NCBI GenBank assembly: GCA_022447065.1
Contig: JAKUUM010000009.1
Span: forward strand, 1-64,000
Source: SAR86 cluster bacterium
GTDB taxonomy: Bacteria; Pseudomonadota; Gammaproteobacteria; Magnimaribacterales; Magnimaribacteraceae
DNA: 64,000 bases
Reading direction: 5' to 3'
The notes under the pieces were generated by a model, which searched no databases, was not told where the DNA came from, and saw only the letters and a list, made by a program, of their open reading frames with translations. Positions 7,089 through 61,296 of this stretch are shown piece by piece (the stretch's first letter is position 1; every line of letters starts with the position of its first letter). A program made the translations under genes and the position numbers.

Positions 7089-8492
7089 TTAGTATTTGTA
7101 GATATCAGACTTAAATGGTCCTTCTGTTGAAACATTTATATAGTCGGCCTGTTCTTTCGACAATTTTGTTATGATTCCACCAAAACCTTCAACCATATAG
7201 CTCGCCACTTGTTCATCCAACTTTTTGGGGAGAACTTTGACTTTTATGAGATCCTTTTTAGCCTCATCATCATTTAAGGTTGCAAATTTTTTCTCGTATA
7301 AATACATCTGAGCCAATACTTGGTTAGAAAAAGACCCATCCATAATACGTGAAGGGTGTCCGGTGGCATTTCCCAGATTAACGAGCCTTCCTTCAGATAA
7401 CAAAATTAAATAATCATCACTTTCTAAATTTGGTTGCGCTCCCGACCTAGTGTCTCTAAAGACTTTATGGACTTGTGGCTTCACTTCTTCCCAAGCCCAC
7501 TCGTCACGCATATATTGCGTATCTATTTCAGTATCGAAATGACCAATATTACAAACTATGGCTCCTTTCTTAAGAGCTTTTAGCATGTGTCTATCGCATA
7601 CCTTATAGTTTCCTGTAGCAGTAACCAATAAATCTATGTCTTCTAGAAGATCTGTATTTACCGAGTCAGGGTTGTCTGTATTTTCTCCATTTTTATATGG
7701 CGAGACTACTTCATATCCATCCATACAGGCTTGCATTGCACATATTGGGTCAATTTCACTTACCTTAACAATCATGGCTTCTTGTTTTAAGCTTTGAGCA
7801 GATCCTTTCCCGACATCACCATAACCTATTACAAGTGCTTTTCTCCCACCCAAAAACATATCTGTGCCTCTTTTTATCCCATCATTAAGGCTATGGCGTG
7901 TTCCATATTTGTTGTCATTCTTAGATTTAGTTACTGAATCATTCACATTAATCGCGGGAACCTTTAATTTATTCTGTTTAATCAATTCGTGAAGTCTAAC
8001 TATACCCGTAGTTGTTTCTTCAGTAATTCCATGAATTTTTTCTAGGATTTCTGGATACTTATCATGGGTCATGGCAGTTAAATCTCCACCGTCATCTAAA
8101 ATCATATTCGCATCCCAAGGTTCACCTTCTTTCAGAATTGTTTGTTCTATACACCAATTAAACTCTTCTTCTGTCTGGTCTTTCCATGCAAACACAGGAA
8201 TTCCAGATTTTGCTATGGCAGCTGCAGCATGATCTTGCGTTGAAAAGACGTTGCAACCTGACCATCTAACTTCAGCACCCAGACTAGTAAGAGTTTCAAT
8301 CAAAACCGCCGTTTGTATAGTCATGTGTATGCATCCTAATATTTTTGCACCTTTTAAAGGCTTTTCTACGGCATATCTTTCTCTTAATTTCATTAAAGCA
8401 GGCATTTCTGATTGAGCTATTAAAATTTCATTTCTTCCCCACTCCGCCAGAGAAATGTCTGCAATTTTGAAGTCTTGTTTTTCGTTTGTCAT
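7089..8492 (-). CDS. ahcY: Adenosylhomocysteinase (SAH hydrolase)
   Basis: A 467-residue NAD-dependent enzyme splitting S-adenosylhomocysteine into adenosine and homocysteine. Visible marks are [16 protein letters not shown] at the substrate site, [20 protein letters not shown] with the catalytic Lys/Asp, GYGDVGKG as the NAD-binding Gly-rich loop near residue 258, and the C-terminal KSDIYKY tail that reaches into the partner subunit's cofactor site. The length includes the insertion typical of bacterial long forms. It lies 16 bases downstream of metK. Adenosine released here can be phosphorylated by the adenosine kinase encoded at 55573-56574. Confidence 0.97.
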
Positions 8493-8508
8493 TCTCTTAT
8501 CTTAGTAG

Positions 8509-9669
8509 TTAAAAAGCTTTTAAAGATTCTACTTTATCAGTCTTTTCCCATGAAAAAGTTTCCTCCTCTCTACCAAAATGACCGTAGGCCGCAGTTAATT
8601 GATAGATAGGTCTTTTTAAATCTAACATTTCTATCAATTGCTTAGGTCTAAGGTTAAAATTTTCTCTTATTAAATCAGCTATTTTTTCTTCTCTCAGTGT
8701 TGCAGTCCCAAAAGTATTTATGCTTATTGAAGTTGGTTCTGCTACCCCAATAGCATAAGAGATTTGTATTTCACATTTTTCAGCAAGACCCGCAGCTACA
8801 ATATTTTTTGCAACATAACGAGCAGCGTATGCTGCAGAGCGGTCAACCTTCGAAGGATCTTTCCCTGAAAAGGCACCTCCTCCATGTCTAGCCATACCCC
8901 CATAAGTGTCAACAACAATTTTTCTTCCAGTAAGTCCGCAATCTCCCACAGGACCGCCAATCTCAAATTTTCCAGTAGGATTTATAAAAAATTTTGTCTC
9001 TTTGTTTAGCCAGTTTTGAGGAAGAATAGGCTGTATTATTTCTTCCATAACAGCTTCCTTAAGGTCTTTCTGAGAAATTTCAGGGTCGTGCTGGGTAGAA
9101 AGTACAACCGCAGAAATGGATTCTGGTTTGCCGTTTTTTCCGTAAACAAAACTTACTTGGCTTTTTGCATCTGGTCTTAACCAGTTTAGTTTTCCCGATT
9201 TTCTAATGAAGGCTTGCTGCTCAACAAGTCTATGAGAATAAGTTATTGGAGCTGGCATTAAAACTTCGGTCTCGTTAGTAGCATAACCAAACATAAGACC
9301 CTGATCTCCTGCCCCTTGTTCTTTGTCTTCCCCTTCTCCTTCATTCACTCCTTGTGCAATATTGGTTGATTGTTCCCCAATAATATTAATTATTTCGCAA
9401 GTATTACCATCACATCCAACAGATATATCATCATATCCGATATCACAAATTACTTTTCTGATAACAGCTTCTAGATCAGGATTAGACTTACTTGTAATTT
9501 CTCCAGCAAGAATCACTAGGTTGTCCTTGATCAAAGTCTCACAAGCAACTCTTGATTCAGGATCATCTTTCAACATTGAATCAAGAACGGCATCAGAAAT
9601 TTGATCTGCCATTTTATCAGGATGGCCTTCAGAAACTGATTCTGAAGTAAAAATCTTATATTCAGACAT
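8509..9669 (-). CDS. metK: S-adenosylmethionine synthetase
   Basis: A 386-residue enzyme making SAM from methionine and ATP. Motifs are [13 protein letters not shown] near residue 15 (ATP site), [12 protein letters not shown] near 120 (signature 1) and [16 protein letters not shown] near 265 (phosphate-binding signature 2). Length matches the family (about 384). It is the first gene of the long minus-strand operon. The 134 bases separating it from divergent tkt hold a possible -10 (TAGAAT, 9711-9706) but no SAM or SAH riboswitch fold I could recognise. The next gene, ahcY, completes the SAM-SAH loop. Confidence 0.97.
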
Positions 9670-9803
9670 AATATTAAATTGTCTCAGAATTAAAAAAGGA
9701 TCGGCATTCTACCCTTAATTTACAGTTTTTATCCAATTTTAGAACATGAAATGTGTACACTTTTTTTATAATCAGAGAAAATAGTAATCCTAAGAGGTTT
9801 CAA
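9670..9803. promoter_or_regulatory. Divergent promoter region between metK and tkt
   Basis: These 134 bases serve two diverging operons. On the plus strand TATAAT at 9767-9772 lies 32 bases before the tkt ATG. On the minus strand TAGAAT (9711-9706) with a possible TTGGAT (9736-9731) at a 19-base spacing faces metK. Neither -35 is strong. No riboswitch was recognised. Confidence 0.4.
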
Positions 9804-11792
9804 ATGATTAAAAGTATAGAATTAGCAAATGCAATCAGGGTCCTATCCATGGACGCCGTTGAGAAGGCTAAATCTGGCCATCCTGGTATGCCTATGGGTA
9901 TGGCAGATATAGCTGAAGTCCTTTGGAGGGGTCATCTACGACACAATCCTAATAATCCAGGCTGGCCAAATAGAGATAGATTTGTTCTGTCTAACGGGCA
10001 TGGCAGCATGCTGCTCTATTCTCTTCTCCATTTAACTGGTTATGACCTTTCAATCGAAGAAATCAAAAATTTTAGACAGTTTGGATCAAAGACCCCAGGT
10101 CACCCTGAATTTGGCGTGACCCCTGGAGTAGAAGCAACAACTGGACCTCTTGGTCAGGGTTTGGCCAATGCAGTTGGAATGGCAATTGCTGAGAAAATCC
10201 TAGCAGAAAGATTTAATGAAGATGATTTTCCAGTTATGGACCACATGACTTACGTTTTTTCTGGGGACGGATGTTTAATGGAAGGGATATCTCATGAAGC
10301 CTGTTCGCTTGCTGGAACCTTGAAGCTAGGAAAACTTATGGTCTTTTATGACGATAATGATATATCTATAGACGGTGAAGTTTCAGGGTGGTTTACAGAA
10401 GATATACCTAAAAGATTTGAATCTTATGGTTGGCACGTTATTCCAAATGTAGATGGTCATAAATCAAATCAAATTGAGAAAGCCATTAGAAAGGCTAAAG
10501 AAAATCTTGATAAACCCACAATAATTTGTTGTAAAACTAAGATAGGTAAAGGATCGCCTAATAAAGCAGGAACAGCTGCTGCTCACGGGTTGGCGTTGGG
10601 AGAAGAAGAGATAAACTTAACTAGAAAAGAATTAAATTGGAGTCACCCACCCTTTACTATCCCAGAAGAAATTTACGTGGGCTGGGATTCAAAAGAATCA
10701 GGAAAAGCGTATGAGGAAAAGTGGAACCTATTGTTAGAGAGATATGAAAAAGAATATCCGGAGCCTGCCAAAGAACTGAACAGAGTGTTATCTAATGCTC
10801 TACCACAAAATTTTGAAAATGAAATTGATCAATACATTACTTCCTTACAGTCAGAGCAAGCTGACATTGCCACGAGGAAATCTTCGGAAATAGTTCTTAA
10901 TTTTTTAGGACCTTTACTACCAGAACTTCTAGGAGGCTCAGCGGATCTAAGCGGCTCAAACAATACTAGGTGGGTAGGAACGAAGCCAATTACTGGAAGC
11001 ATGCCAGGGGGTAACTATCTTTATTACGGAGTGAGAGAGTTTGCAATGACCGCCATAGTTAACGGACTAGTTTTACATGGCGGCATCAAACCTTATGCAG
11101 GCACTTTTCTCACTTTCTTAGATTATGCAAGAAATGCAGTGAGAATGTCTGCTTTAATGCGATTGCCTTCAATATTTATTTACTCTCATGACTCCATTGG
11201 TTTGGGAGAAGATGGTCCAACTCATCAACCTATAGAGCACCTAGCCAGTCTTAGATCAACTCCTAATCTAGAGACTTGGAGACCTTGCGATACAGTAGAA
11301 ACTGCGGTTTCTTGGAAATCAGCCCTATTCAACCAGAATTCTCCTACTGCCATCATTCTTTCTAGACAGGATCTTAAGTCACAAGAAAGAAAAGAAAACC
11401 AGATAAGCTTGATTGAAAGAGGAGGCTACATTCTTCATGAGCCTAAAAAAGAACCAGATTTAGTTATTATTTCGACAGGATCTGAAATCGGGGCAGTAAT
11501 GGATGCCGTAAAAGAAATAAATTCAAAAAGAAATATCAGAGTAGTTTCCATGCCCTGTACAGAGAGATTTGATAATCAGGACGAATCTTATAAAGAAGAT
11601 GTTTTAGGCAAAACCATTCCACGAATGGCAGTAGAAGCCTCTCACGAAGATTGGTGGAAAAAATATGTAGGTAAAAAAGGAAGAGTAGTTGGAATGAAGA
11701 CATTTGGGGAATCAGCCCCAGGGGGCGTTCTTCAAAAACATTTTGGGTTTGATAAAGAAAGCATTATAAAAGTTATAGATTCAATAATTTAA
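9804..11792 (+). CDS. tkt: Transketolase
   Basis: A 662-residue thiamine-diphosphate enzyme of the pentose phosphate and Calvin-type carbon shuffles. The ATG at 9804 is chosen over an upstream in-frame ATG at 9753 because AAGAGG precedes it and the product then starts like other transketolases. Marks are GHPGMPMG, SNGHGSMLLY, the ThDP/metal motif GDGCLMEG running to DDNDISIDG, and the central-domain YGVREFAM with SHDSIGLGEDGPTHQP. It is followed by pgk 5 bases later. It needs thiamine diphosphate, which is relevant because a thiamine-synthesis remnant occurs at 59.4-59.6 kb. Confidence 0.97.
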   Translation: MIKSIELANAIRVLSMDAVEKAKSGHPGMPMGMADIAEVLWRGHLRHNPNNPGWPNRDRFVLSNGHGSMLLYSLLHLTGYDLSIEEIKNFRQFGSKTPGHPEFGVTPGVEATTGPLGQGLANAVGMAIAEKILAERFNEDDFPVMDHMTYVFSGDGCLMEGISHEACSLAGTLKLGKLMVFYDDNDISIDGEVSGWFTEDIPKRFESYGWHVIPNVDGHKSNQIEKAIRKAKENLDKPTIICCKTKIGKGSPNKAGTAAAHGLALGEEEINLTRKELNWSHPPFTIPEEIYVGWDSKESGKAYEEKWNLLLERYEKEYPEPAKELNRVLSNALPQNFENEIDQYITSLQSEQADIATRKSSEIVLNFLGPLLPELLGGSADLSGSNNTRWVGTKPITGSMPGGNYLYYGVREFAMTAIVNGLVLHGGIKPYAGTFLTFLDYARNAVRMSALMRLPSIFIYSHDSIGLGEDGPTHQPIEHLASLRSTPNLETWRPCDTVETAVSWKSALFNQNSPTAIILSRQDLKSQERKENQISLIERGGYILHEPKKEPDLVIISTGSEIGAVMDAVKEINSKRNIRVVSMPCTERFDNQDESYKEDVLGKTIPRMAVEASHEDWWKKYVGKKGRVVGMKTFGESAPGGVLQKHFGFDKESIIKVIDSII

Positions 11793-28508: not shown

Positions 28509-28689
28509 AAGGGAGCTTCCCGGAGTACCGTTGCCGATGTAGCCCTGAACCGTGAAGTTCAAGGCGGTGATTTTGTTGGCCTATCAGGCTTCCTCAAGAA
28601 GGCTTGCTCAACAAGACTTTCCAAAATCTCCTGATTATTCAATAACGGCTCGAGGGTCTCATCAGCTATCAAATAGACCAGGAAGCAAA
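28509..28689 (-). ncRNA. ssrS: 6S RNA
   Basis: About 181 nt on the minus strand between zapA and fau, the standard site for 6S RNA. The ends pair (GCTTCC near 28686 with GGGAAGC near 28513). CCTCGAGCCG near the 5' side and CCTTGAACTTCACGGTTCAGGGCTACA near the 3' side (28542-28568) match the conserved 6S elements, and a long interrupted central stem lies between. A -10-like TATACT sits at about 28699-28694, six bases before the inferred start. 6S RNA mimics an open promoter and sequesters sigma-70 RNA polymerase. Ends are approximate to a few bases. Confidence 0.9.
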
Positions 28690-56619: not shown

Positions 56620-58914
56620 ATGAGATTTTCTTTAAAGATATTTATTTATTTAGCTCTTCTTATTTTACTAGTTATTTGCACTGCTTATGTATCAATACTT
56701 GATTCAAAAGTTACAAATAAACTGGATGGAGCTTTATGGACGGTTCCAGCAAAAGTATATGCAAGGCCTCTAGAGTTAGCTGAAGGAGGGAGAATACACT
56801 TAGATATCCTAAAAAAAGAATTAGATATACTTTCTTATGAGAAAACAAAAGAAAGTCCAGAACTTCCAGGTGAATATTCTTTTACAGGTAATAGCATCAG
56901 TATTTATGTCAGGGGTTTTGAGAAACAGAAACCGAGTCTCTTTAGTTTAAAGTTCAAAGAAGGGAAGATTGAATCCATAAAAAGGAAAGATGGGATTCTT
57001 ATAGACCTTATACAGCTTGAACCACTTTCAATCGGTGGGATGTATCCCATACATCTACAGGACAGAATACTGCTTAATTTTTCCCAGGTCCCAGAAGATT
57101 TAAAGGAAATGATTCTTGTTGTAGAAGATAGAGACTTCTTTGATCATCGAGGCATCTCTTTAAAGTCCATAGCTAGGGCTTTCATAAAAAACACTAAATC
57201 TATGGGTATACAAGAAGGTGGTAGCACTATAACTCAGCAATTAGCTAAAAGTTTATTCTTCTCTCCAGAACAAACAATTAGAAGAAAAATTAAAGAAGCC
57301 TTAGCAGCAATATTGATAGAAATCCATTACTCCAAGGAAGAGATACTTTTAGCTTATATAAATGATGTTTTTATAGCCCAGTCTGGTAAAAGAGCTATTC
57401 ATGGCTTCGGTTTAGCTTCTCAATTTTTTTTTGGAACTACTTTAAAGAATCTAGAAATAGACCAAAAGGCTCTATTAGTAGGCATGTTGAAAGGACCTTC
57501 ATTATACAGTCCAGTAAAGAATCCTAAAAAGGCTAAAGAAAGAAGAAATCTAGTTTTAACATTACTGAGGAATGATTTTCTTTTAACTCAGGAAGAATAT
57601 GTAAAGTTTATTAATAAACCTATAAAAGCTATTTCTCCAACTTACAAAAGTTTATCTAAATATCCTTCTTTTAATGATTTAGTAACCATGGATCTAAAGA
57701 AAAATTTTAAGGATAGAGACTTAAGAACCAAAGGGTTAAAGATAATCACAAATCTTGATCCAGTTATCCAAAATTTATTGGAAGATAGTGTTAAGGAAAC
57801 CGTCCTAGTACTACAAAAAAAGTACGGAGATAAGCTTCAAGATTTAGAAGGAGCTGCGATAGTAATTGATTCATTTAGTGGTGAGATAAAAGCTGTAGTT
57901 GGTAGTACAGATCCTAAAACTTATGGTTTCAATAGATCAATTAATGCTTTGAGGCCTATAGGATCTTTGATTAAACCTTTTATATATTTATCGGCTTTAC
58001 AACAGTTTGGGAAATATAACCTTTCTTCACTATTGGATGATTCCAAGTTATCTGTTCCTTTATCAGGGGGACAATTGTGGGAACCTAATAACTTTGACAA
58101 AAAATTCCATGGAATGATACCCCTACATGTAGCTTTATCTGAATCTTATAATGTTGCTACTACAAGGTTAGGTCTAGATCTTGGATACTCTTCAGTACAA
58201 AAAACTTTTACAGAATTGGGAATAGAAAAAGAAATTTCTGAATACCCTTCAGTGTTCTTGGGTGCTTTTGAAATGACACCCATTGAAGTTATACAGGCTT
58301 ATCAAACGATTGCTTCGGGAGGGTTTTATTCTCCGCTAAAGGCTATTCGTAAAGTTAATAGTAGTGATAACAAGCTTTTTTTCTCATATCCCTCTAAACC
58401 CGAACAGAGATTTAGGTCTGAACCAATTTTCCTTTTAAAATTTATTTTGAAACAGACTTTTCTAAGGGGAACGGCAAGAGGGTTTCCGTTGAAGGTAATT
58501 GAAAGGTGGAATACTGGAGGAAAGACTGGAACTTCTGATGATCAAAGAGATAGCTGGTTTGTAGGCTATGCAGGTGATTATCTGATGTTAGTATGGTTAG
58601 GATTTGACGATAATAGAAAATCCCTTCTAACTGGAAGGTCTGGAGCTTTACAGGTTTGGAAAAAATTTATGAGTACATTAGACCCTCAAGCATCAGAAGT
58701 AAGAAAACCCTCCAGAATAAAATATGAATGGGTGGACCATGGTGATGGACTCTTAAGTGGCGAAAAATGTAAAGGATCTCTTTTAATACCTTTTATATCT
58801 GGGACTGAGCCCACATTTTTACCAGATAATAGAAAGAAGTGTAGAATTAATGAAGAGTCTTATGCTTCAAAAGTTGTTAAGAAAATTAAAGAAGCGGTAC
58901 AAGAAAGGCAATGA
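56620..58914 (+). CDS. mrcB: Penicillin-binding protein 1B
   Basis: A 764-residue bifunctional peptidoglycan synthase. A single N-terminal membrane helix (about 6-28) is followed by a UB2H-like regulatory domain (about 50-130). The transglycosylase has EDRDFFDHRGIS near 168 (catalytic Glu) and GGSTITQQLAK near 203. The transpeptidase has the Ser in RPIGSLIKPF (SxxK) near 449, SxN in SESYNVATT near 504 and KTGT in GGKTGTSDD near 643. It is followed by an overlapping lipoprotein gene that could be an activator akin to LpoB in role, though not in sequence. Confidence 0.95.
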   Translation: MRFSLKIFIYLALLILLVICTAYVSILDSKVTNKLDGALWTVPAKVYARPLELAEGGRIHLDILKKELDILSYEKTKESPELPGEYSFTGNSISIYVRGFEKQKPSLFSLKFKEGKIESIKRKDGILIDLIQLEPLSIGGMYPIHLQDRILLNFSQVPEDLKEMILVVEDRDFFDHRGISLKSIARAFIKNTKSMGIQEGGSTITQQLAKSLFFSPEQTIRRKIKEALAAILIEIHYSKEEILLAYINDVFIAQSGKRAIHGFGLASQFFFGTTLKNLEIDQKALLVGMLKGPSLYSPVKNPKKAKERRNLVLTLLRNDFLLTQEEYVKFINKPIKAISPTYKSLSKYPSFNDLVTMDLKKNFKDRDLRTKGLKIITNLDPVIQNLLEDSVKETVLVLQKKYGDKLQDLEGAAIVIDSFSGEIKAVVGSTDPKTYGFNRSINALRPIGSLIKPFIYLSALQQFGKYNLSSLLDDSKLSVPLSGGQLWEPNNFDKKFHGMIPLHVALSESYNVATTRLGLDLGYSSVQKTFTELGIEKEISEYPSVFLGAFEMTPIEVIQAYQTIASGGFYSPLKAIRKVNSSDNKLFFSYPSKPEQRFRSEPIFLLKFILKQTFLRGTARGFPLKVIERWNTGGKTGTSDDQRDSWFVGYAGDYLMLVWLGFDDNRKSLLTGRSGALQVWKKFMSTLDPQASEVRKPSRIKYEWVDHGDGLLSGEKCKGSLLIPFISGTEPTFLPDNRKKCRINEESYASKVVKKIKEAVQERQ

Positions 58915-59354
58915 AAATATCTAAGACGCATTTCATTTTCCTGGTATTTGTATGTTTTTTTGTAAGTTGTGCTTCTGTTTCTAAGAAACAAACTAGTTTT
59001 TATGATATTGAGATTCAGAAGTTTTCTTCTGAGATTAAATTACTCTTGAATGACTTAGATTTTTTAAAGAGCGAAGTTCTCAAAGTGAATGCTAAAAGGC
59101 CATCTATTCAAAGAATCTTATTAGAAGCAGATGATTATTGGAGGAAAGGAAATCTTAATCAGACTAATTCCGTATTAGAGAGAGGGCTTAGAATAGCAAA
59201 GGACGAGAGCGCTTTATATCTTAGATTGGCTCATTTAAGGATAGAACAAGGTTTAGATAAGGAAGCTTCTGCATTTGCTTCCAGAGGTTTATTTAATAAA
59301 GATGCTTCTGCATGGGAGCTTTTACTCTTAAAAATCTACTCAGAAGAGAACTAG
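58911..59354 (+). CDS. TPR-like lipoprotein coupled to mrcB
   Basis: A 147-residue protein whose start overlaps the mrcB stop (ATGA). A lipobox VSC places a lipidated Cys at residue 20, followed by Ala-Ser. Helical TPR-like repeats follow, visible as DDYWRKGNLNQTNSVLERGLRIAKDES and ALYLRLAHLRIEQGLDKEASAFASRGL, with a closing helix. The tight link to PBP1B suggests a role as an outer-membrane cofactor for peptidoglycan synthesis; this is inference. No sequence likeness to LpoB is claimed. Confidence 0.85.
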   Translation: MKISKTHFIFLVFVCFFVSCASVSKKQTSFYDIEIQKFSSEIKLLLNDLDFLKSEVLKVNAKRPSIQRILLEADDYWRKGNLNQTNSVLERGLRIAKDESALYLRLAHLRIEQGLDKEASAFASRGLFNKDASAWELLLLKIYSEEN

Positions 59355-59369
59355 AAAATCTTTCTAGTT
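59349..59369. terminator. Perfect inverted repeat after the mrcB-lipoprotein operon
   Basis: AACTAGAAA and TTTCTAGTT form a perfect 9-bp stem with a 3-base loop (ATC), spanning the lipoprotein stop codon on the plus strand and the stop codon of the thiD/thiE remnant on the minus. No strong T-run follows, so it may be a processing or bidirectional termination site. Confidence 0.5.
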
Positions 59370-59647
59370 ATCTATTTAATACACGAATCATTTTAGAAGT
59401 ATTTTCTTCAAAGAATATTCCGGAAGAAAGGGCGAACATATCTGCACCTGAATTTCTTACTTCCAGAAAATTACTTAAATTTATTCCCCCTATAGCGACC
59501 CAAGGTATTTTGAATGGTTAAACAACTTATAAGACTGATTGCAAGGCAACTTAAGGAGCTGATAGTTTCTACATCTGCAGTAATACCGGCACCTCCAGAA
59601 GGATCATGCCCTCCAATTGTTAAAACTACCGGAAAATTAGGAGACAT
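59368..59647 (-). pseudogene. Collapsed thiD/thiE remnant (thiamine synthesis)
   Basis: On the minus strand an ATG at 59647 begins 48 codons identical in pattern to the start of hydroxymethylpyrimidine phosphate kinase ThiD: VVLTIGGHDPSGGAGITAD, then CLTIQNT. At about 59505 the reading shifts frame and the text becomes the end of thiamine phosphate synthase ThiE: PWVAIGGINLSNFLEV, then SGADMFALSSGIF, to a TAA at 59368. About 200 codons of ThiD and 160 of ThiE that should lie between are gone, so neither enzyme can be made. The ancestor was either adjacent thiD-thiE genes or a fusion. A deletion joined the two ends. Confidence 0.85.
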
Positions 59648-59656
59648 ATAAATATA

Positions 59657-59686
59657 TTGAGTAAAGGCGATTCATAGTTTTATAAT
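59657..59686 (+). promoter_or_regulatory. Promoter for erpA, ahead of the argC remnant
   Basis: TTGAGT (59657-59662) and a perfect TATAAT (59681-59686) are separated by 18 bases, a good sigma-70 promoter. It lies immediately before the argC remnant, and presumably once drove argC and now drives erpA with the remnant as an untranslated leader. Confidence 0.6.
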
Positions 59687-59720
59687 GCGCGACCCTATTT
59701 ATACTTGTGTAGGAAAGAAG

Positions 59721-59831
59721 TTGATTAAAGAAAGGAACAAAATAAGAGTAGGAATTATTGGAGCTTCTGTTCAGGCCAAGAATGTTTTAATTTGATGTTT
59801 ATTTTTGAACAAAACATAGGATTGCACTAAA
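59721..59831 (+). pseudogene. Collapsed argC remnant
   Basis: A short frame beginning at a TTG (with AGGAAAG upstream) reads MIKERNKIRVGIIGAS, the start of N-acetyl-gamma-glutamyl-phosphate reductase (family I-x-V-G-I-x-G-A-S/T). It then passes straight into sequence like the ArgC end, QA-K-NV, and after a frame slip NLMFIFEQNIGLH with TAA at 59829-59831 (family SGQA-QN-NLMF...GL). About 300 codons are missing. GAS occurs near both ends of typical ArgC, so a deletion between short repeats is plausible. argC upstream of erpA is the usual order in Pseudomonas-type genomes. Confidence 0.7.
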
Positions 59832-59839
59832 ATTTGATC

Positions 59840-60187
59840 ATGCTAGATTCTTTTAATCCAACAACGCTAAATCTTACCGAAGGTGCAGTAAGGAAAATTC
59901 ATTCTCTTTCAGATACCAAACTTGATAGAGAGATTAATTTAAGAGTCTATGTTACGGGAGGCGGTTGTTCTGGATTCCAGTATGGTTTTTCTTTTGATCA
60001 AGAGATTGATGAAGAGGATACACGTGTTTCTAAGGATGGCGCCACCTTGATTGTTGACCCTCTCAGCCTTCAATACCTTGCAGGATCTACTATTGATTAC
60101 ACAGAAGACCTTGCAGGTTCAAAGTTTATTGTAAAAAACCCTAATGCCATAACTACTTGCGGTTGTGGCGAATCCTTTTCTATCTAA
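59840..60187 (+). CDS. erpA: Iron-sulfur carrier ErpA
   Basis: A 115-residue A-type Fe-S carrier delivering clusters to apoproteins, including isoprenoid synthesis enzymes. The three cluster Cys are in GGGCSGFQYGF and TTCGCGESFSI. DPLSLQYLAGSTIDY is the family's central block. The ATG at 59840 is used in place of a TTG two codons upstream. It follows the argC remnant by 8 bases and converges with anmK, sharing the last 4 bases. Confidence 0.95.
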   Translation: MLDSFNPTTLNLTEGAVRKIHSLSDTKLDREINLRVYVTGGGCSGFQYGFSFDQEIDEEDTRVSKDGATLIVDPLSLQYLAGSTIDYTEDLAGSKFIVKNPNAITTCGCGESFSI

Positions 60188-61296
60188 GCTGTTTTCCAGA
60201 CCTTTCCTAGTAAAACTTTTTTATTACTTCCTGTAATTTTTGATAGATCAAAGCTTCTTTTATTTAGACGTTCTTTTGCCAACCATGCAAAACAACTAGC
60301 TTCTACATAATCTGGATCTATACCTAAAGATAAAGTTGAGAAAGTTTTATTTTTTATCATTTTTTCTAATCTCTTAATTAAAAAAGTGTTGTAAATCCCA
60401 CCTCCACAAATATATACATTCTTTTCTATGACATTTAACCTTTTAAGTTCTGCATAGATAGTTTTTACAGTAAGTTCGGCTAACGTTGCTTGCACATCTT
60501 GGGGGAGGAATTCTTCTTTAAATAAAAGAAGATTTTTTTCAATCCACCTTAGATTAAAGTAGTCAGCTCCCGTACTCTTTGGAGGGCTGCTTTTAAAGAA
60601 AGGATCATTAATCATTGTTTGTAATAGTTGAGGTATACATTTACCTGAAGAAGCCCAAGAACCATCTTCATCAAAATCCCCTTTTTTATGATTCTTATTC
60701 CAAACATCTATAAGGCAATTTCCTGGACCGCTGTCATATGCAATTATTTCTTCAGAAGAGTTTTTTAAACTTGTTAGGTTACTAATTCCTCCAATATTTA
60801 TTACTGTTCCCTCAGAAATAGAACTAATTTTAAAAATGAATTGATGAAAAAGAGGTGAAAGAGGAGCTCCTTGACCTCCAGCCTGTATATCAGCTTTTCT
60901 AAAATCAGCAACAGTTCTTATGTTTGTAATTCTAATAATTTCTTTCGGATTTCCAATTTGAAGGGAATAAGGATTGGGCAGATTAGGTTCATGTTTGATG
61001 GTTTGGCCATGACTACCAATGGCTACAATATTAGACTTATCTATTGAAGCTTTATCTAGTAAATGTAAAGTTGCTTTTCCAAATACTTTTCCCAGTTCAA
61101 TATCTAAATCATTAATATTATTTTTAGATGTATGGCTATCATTGACAGCTTCAAATATTCTGTTTTTTAAATCGTTTTGAATAGGAGTAGATTCCTCTTC
61201 TACAAGTTCAAATCTGTCTTTGGATAAATTTACTATTACCGCGTCAATAGAATCAACACTTGTTCCGGACATTAATCCAACAAAGAGCCCTTCCAT
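60184..61296 (-). CDS. anmK: Anhydro-N-acetylmuramic acid kinase
   Basis: A 370-residue sugar kinase of peptidoglycan recycling, converting anhydro-MurNAc to MurNAc-6-phosphate. GLMSGTSVDSIDAVIV near residue 6 is the hallmark ATP/substrate motif; IGSHGQTIKHEP near 92, ADFRKADIQAGGQGAPLSP near 130, and CGGGIYN near 300 follow. It is paired with the M23 peptidase gene and erpA as in Pseudomonas. Confidence 0.95.
   Translation of the reverse strand: MEGLFVGLMSGTSVDSIDAVIVNLSKDRFELVEEESTPIQNDLKNRIFEAVNDSHTSKNNINDLDIELGKVFGKATLHLLDKASIDKSNIVAIGSHGQTIKHEPNLPNPYSLQIGNPKEIIRITNIRTVADFRKADIQAGGQGAPLSPLFHQFIFKISSISEGTVINIGGISNLTSLKNSSEEIIAYDSGPGNCLIDVWNKNHKKGDFDEDGSWASSGKCIPQLLQTMINDPFFKSSPPKSTGADYFNLRWIEKNLLLFKEEFLPQDVQATLAELTVKTIYAELKRLNVIEKNVYICGGGIYNTFLIKRLEKMIKNKTFSTLSLGIDPDYVEASCFAWLAKERLNKRSFDLSKITGSNKKVLLGKVWKTA

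Follow-up and report, generated by a model that had tools for sequence, protein, structure and literature searches.

The 64,000-nucleotide stretch of a SAR86 genome (G000) that was analysed, hereafter the window, contains a locus that very likely preserves, in fossil form, the loss of pathways in a streamlined lineage. Two deletions would have left this bacterium auxotrophic for thiamine (B1) and arginine and reliant on riboswitch-controlled uptake, with the erpA promoter between the deletions spared and with a separate loss in the congener G003 (isolate UWMA-0063). Auxotrophy in ocean bacteria is usually read from absent genes, and incomplete draft genomes can mimic such absence. Remnants that are still in place, combined with intact copies in a congener, represent real loss and date it to within one genus; here, a single locus shows the loss of B1 and arginine synthesis in parallel lineages.

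The thiamine remnant consists of the beginning of thiD and the end of thiE, both on the minus strand. The first 48 codons of thiD, with the start codon retained, are found at 59504-59647 (translation MSPNFPVVLTIGGHDPSGGAGITADVETISSLSCLAISLISCLTIQNT), and they showed 75% identity to residues 1-48 of the intact ThiD of the congener SAR86 REDSEA-S09_B4 (G001) and a 43-bit match to Pfam Phos_pyr_kin (PF08543) over profile positions 1-37 only. The final ~45 codons and the stop codon of thiE follow in a different frame at 59368-59503, ending in IPWVAIGGINLSNFLEVRNSGADMFALSSGIFFEENTSKMIRVLNR; this stub aligns from about residue 157 to the ThiE C-terminus and matches positions 130-180 of PF02581 with 31.4 bits. 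The ThiD and ThiE stubs aligned with scores of 183 and 112, whereas the highest scores reached when the bases of the region were shuffled 200 times were 57 and 53. A preliminary description of the sequence had already recognized that the first 48 ThiD codons run out of frame into the final ~45 codons of ThiE, and its coordinates and frames were right. The junction is located at ~59500-59504, where ~1.1 kb is missing relative to G001. A suggested search for short repeats at 59504 was unrewarding, as the thiE/thiD junction showed no convincing direct repeat; the ~25-30% DNA divergence from G001 could mask former repeat words at this gap.

When the thiD stub was compared with G001, substitutions at codon positions 1, 2 and 3 amounted to 0.17, 0.13 and 0.56, and the intact PBP1B gene gave 0.20, 0.12 and 0.51. 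Because the pattern in the stub resembles that of the intact gene, most of the divergence probably accrued while thiD still worked. Thus, the deletion, which had been described as both large and recent, is recent only in a relative sense, since the stub still carries coding-type substitutions.

The neighbouring argC gene, divergent from the thiamine remnant and 40 bp away from it, has likewise collapsed (59685-59830), which the earlier work had missed. About 30 initial codons, in the frame as compared with G001, remain on the plus strand at 59685-59774; the leader codons coincide in part with a -10-like box, and the true argC probably begins ~14 codons later. The last ~16-20 codons and the stop codon (ECFNLMFIFEQNIGLH) are found in another frame at 59768-59830 on the same strand. 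Relative to G001, ~0.91 kb of argC is missing and the junction falls inside similar 8-bp GGAGCyyC words. In G001 the gap is bounded by the similar words GGAGCCTC and GGAGCTGC, which suggests slippage or a short-homology deletion. Substitutions in the argC stub at codon positions 1, 2 and 3 were 0.10, 0.23 and 0.40 over 30 codons, too short a stretch to judge. The catalytic core is absent from all three remnants, as only ThiD 1-48, ThiE from residue ~157, and ArgC 1-30 and 332-353 are left, in differing frames.

The remnants are embedded among intact genes in the order PBP1B, lipoprotein, thiE end/thiD start, argC ends, erpA, anmK, M23 peptidase and tyrS. The left flank is an intact transglycosylase/transpeptidase gene (56620-58914, plus strand), which we take to be of the PBP1B type from sequence features and general knowledge. 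It is followed by an intact small lipoprotein-like gene (58911-59354, plus strand) that forms the left boundary of the locus and showed 68% identity to the gene at the same place in G001. On the right, the intact erpA, an Fe-S cluster gene, is found straight after the argC stub (59834-60187, plus strand; NF010147, 165 bits), and synteny supports the assignment since erpA comes after argC in relatives. The intact anmK gene (60184-61296, minus strand; NF007139, 424 bits) completes the right flank. The block spared between the deletions contains a promoter-like TTGAGT-18-TATAAT at 59657-59686 on the plus strand, directed towards argC/erpA. The number of promoter-like sites did not exceed that in shuffled sequences, and the argument for this promoter is positional conservation in few genomes: the TATAAT is at the same position in G001 and G003. 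In relatives, erpA starts within ~10 bp of the argC end and is therefore probably transcribed from the spared-block promoter. The consensus match and the conservation in these few genomes suggest that the block was probably spared for its erpA promoter.

The ancestral state can be seen in relatives. In G001 the gene order is the same, with a full thiE (206 aa; L059, 7741-8361, minus strand) overlapping a full thiD (256 aa; 8358-9128, minus strand), a divergent argC (353 aa; 9166-10227, plus strand), and erpA. A DNA alignment to G001 showed two gaps in the window, one of ~1.1 kb across thiE/thiD and one of ~0.91 kb within argC. Intact thiE-thiD and argC were also found at the same place in G009, a member of the same family, and the argC order there is shared with G001. 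The comparison with relatives that had been proposed thus bore out the large deletion, as the congener has thiE and thiD intact and overlapping at precisely this position.

The congener G003 showed a different outcome. Between its lipoprotein gene and argC no trace of thiE-thiD was detectable, and argC was cut to approximately the first 36-42 and the last 13 codons, with a left junction that differs from that in G000. In addition, a 34-codon 3′ stub of thiG is located directly behind rpoH (L241 14000-14101, G003:C122), where G001 has a full thiG. A tree of 54 genes (16,709 sites) gave the topology (G000,((G001,G002),G003)) with 100% support and superseded an earlier six-gene tree with 67% support at the key node. 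Since G003 groups with the intact G001 and G002, the losses in G000 and G003 are separate events. In 17 further SAR86 loci (L113-L128 and L130) thiE-thiD was missing at this place and argC was kept, so thiE-thiD was lost in other branches too. A ThiE-like fragment in G003 (L061 3591-3788, G003:C21), covering about the C-terminal 66 residues of a ThiE/TenI-like domain, was rejected as the thiDE locus because it sits between yacG and secA; it is probably what is left of a second domain, also TMP-synthase-like, that belongs to a different locus.

All absences in the window genome hold within a completeness of 93% (50 contigs). The recommended genome search revealed no thiD or thiE besides the stubs and no thiC or thiG in this 93%-complete genome. 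Likewise, argB, argH and a true argC were not found there; a weak ArgC-like match at C49:47194-48180 was rejected, as it is flanked by leuB and truA and reads as Asd. AA_kinase proteins (PF00696) in the window genome were LysC- and ProB-sized only, and relatives showed ArgB-sized proteins of ~290 aa. The same PF00696 search across 12 genomes listed LysC-, ProB- and ArgB-sized proteins and no PyrH-sized one (~240 aa) in any of them, which probably reflects the limited sensitivity of this first-look search and calls for caution about absences. Single absences could be gaps in the draft. However, with several genes missing and stubs still in place, assembly gaps are unlikely as a general explanation. 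The earlier suggestion that the cell cannot make the pyrimidine is supported, although it follows from the absence of thiC and not from the loss of thiD, which encodes a kinase. The proposed dependence on outside thiamine is well supported too; precursors alone would not suffice, because no enzyme is left to join the halves and intact thiamine or its phosphates are needed. Judged by gene content, auxotrophy for B1, which would be imported, is very probable in this bacterium, and auxotrophy for arginine is probable.

An assembly artefact, in which intact thiE-thiD and argC collapsed in the draft, is very improbable. Although the sequence comes from a draft of 50 contigs, two separate junctions flank a correctly ordered and divergently conserved block that is collinear with G001, and no long repeat that would cause such a collapse was seen. 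The remaining steps of both pathways are missing as well, and G003 has equivalent but different junctions. Even less credible is the proposal that the remnants now encode small, expressed proteins with a novel function, such as the product of the 58-codon open reading frame that begins at the ThiD start. This frame is open and its thiD part shows coding-type substitutions, but such substitutions would be no less expected had the divergence mostly arisen before the deletion. Moreover, of the ~256 residues of the kinase, the 58-aa product would contain just the first 48, followed by an out-of-frame end, and the thiD part is wholly lost in G003.

It was also considered whether the argC deletion is ancestral to G000 and G003 rather than parallel, with argC restored in G001 by recombination. 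In both genomes argC retains ~30-40 codons at its N-terminal end and 13-20 at its C-terminal end, and the right-hand ends are at almost the same position. However, the left-hand junctions are several codons apart, G001 and G003 group together at 100% and no other pair was closer in 45 of 54 genes, and argC in G001 is in the ancestral order common to G009. A single shared deletion is thus unlikely. A broader proposal builds on the separate losses, namely that the divergent thiDE/argC-erpA locus underwent two or more independent collapses within one SAR86 genus, and that these always ended at the erpA promoter and at the end of argC next to erpA. We put this forward tentatively, as a possibility that falls slightly short of being favoured. 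If true, the deletions would follow a repeatable pattern with limits set by selection, and the capacity to make B1 and arginine would disappear together.

Importers had been named as something to look for, and a candidate system was found in G000. A TPP riboswitch (RF00059, 60 bits, over the cut-off) overlaps with its 3′ end the start of a TonB receptor gene, and a PnuC-type transporter gene (PF04973) overlaps and follows the receptor gene. By sequence, the PnuT-type protein scores as a PnuC/NMN transporter, and a specificity for thiamine is suggested by the riboswitch. The same riboswitch-receptor-transporter arrangement was found in G004, G005, G006 and G008, and no TPP riboswitch match was obtained in the thiC-bearing G001, G002 and G009. 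An intact ThiL is present in the window genome and was kept in 10 of 10 genomes searched, and thiamine pyrophosphokinase (TPK, PF04263) was found in none of 10, the window genome included. The examined stretches of G000, which cover part of the genome, yielded no ThiK relative. In G004, the third gene behind pnuT (L066 6620-7480, G004:C8) is ThiK/choline-kinase-like with 68 bits, below the curated cut-off. This gene is a candidate thiamine kinase, and such an activity would account for the retention of ThiL in the absence of TPK.

We propose that an ancestor carried thiE-thiD divergent from argC-erpA. As the comparison with G001 shows, one deletion of ~1.1 kb removed most of thiE and thiD and another of ~0.91 kb the middle of argC. 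Deletions that left the promoter and the erpA ribosome-binding site intact would be tolerated. Thiamine would be taken up by the TPP-riboswitch-controlled TonB receptor and the PnuT-type transporter and converted to TMP by a putative kinase, unless TMP itself is imported, and the retained ThiL would then make thiamine diphosphate. G003 underwent these two losses separately.

Bacteroidetes, such as Bacteroides thetaiotaomicron, reportedly take up thiamine through a TonB receptor and PnuT under TPP control, as proposed for G000. In contrast to that system, thiamine pyrophosphokinase (PF04263) was not found here and ThiL is kept, and G004 has the ThiK-like gene behind pnuT. For SAR86, B1 auxotrophy and omr1, encoding a TonB receptor, near a TDP riboswitch are described in PMC10881298, and auxotrophy for B vitamins and arginine is attributed to Dupont et al. 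2012 in PMC7609354. The window genome resembles these accounts in its lost B1 synthesis genes, in omr1 by a TPP riboswitch and in the auxotrophy for B1 and arginine that it is predicted to have. Both auxotrophies and the pairing of omr1 with a riboswitch have thus been published for SAR86 before, and the locus is a clear fossil of known streamlining. As excerpted, PMC10881298 and PMC7609354 deal with presence and absence, whereas here deletion remnants are visible in a genus with some intact species. No report of the thiD/thiE/argC remnants themselves was found in the literature searched. SAR11, according to PMC10881298, retains thiE and thiG and imports pyrimidine precursors. Like the window bacterium, thiC-deficient SAR11 (Pelagibacterales) are streamlined marine bacteria relying on outside B1-related compounds, but in the window genome nothing remains to join the two thiamine halves.

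Two further features of the window lie far from the locus. The transketolase gene, at 9753-11792, had been called nearby, which is a loose term for a distance of ~48 kb from the remnant. A 6S RNA was matched on the minus strand at 28513-28687 of the window with 75.4 bits.
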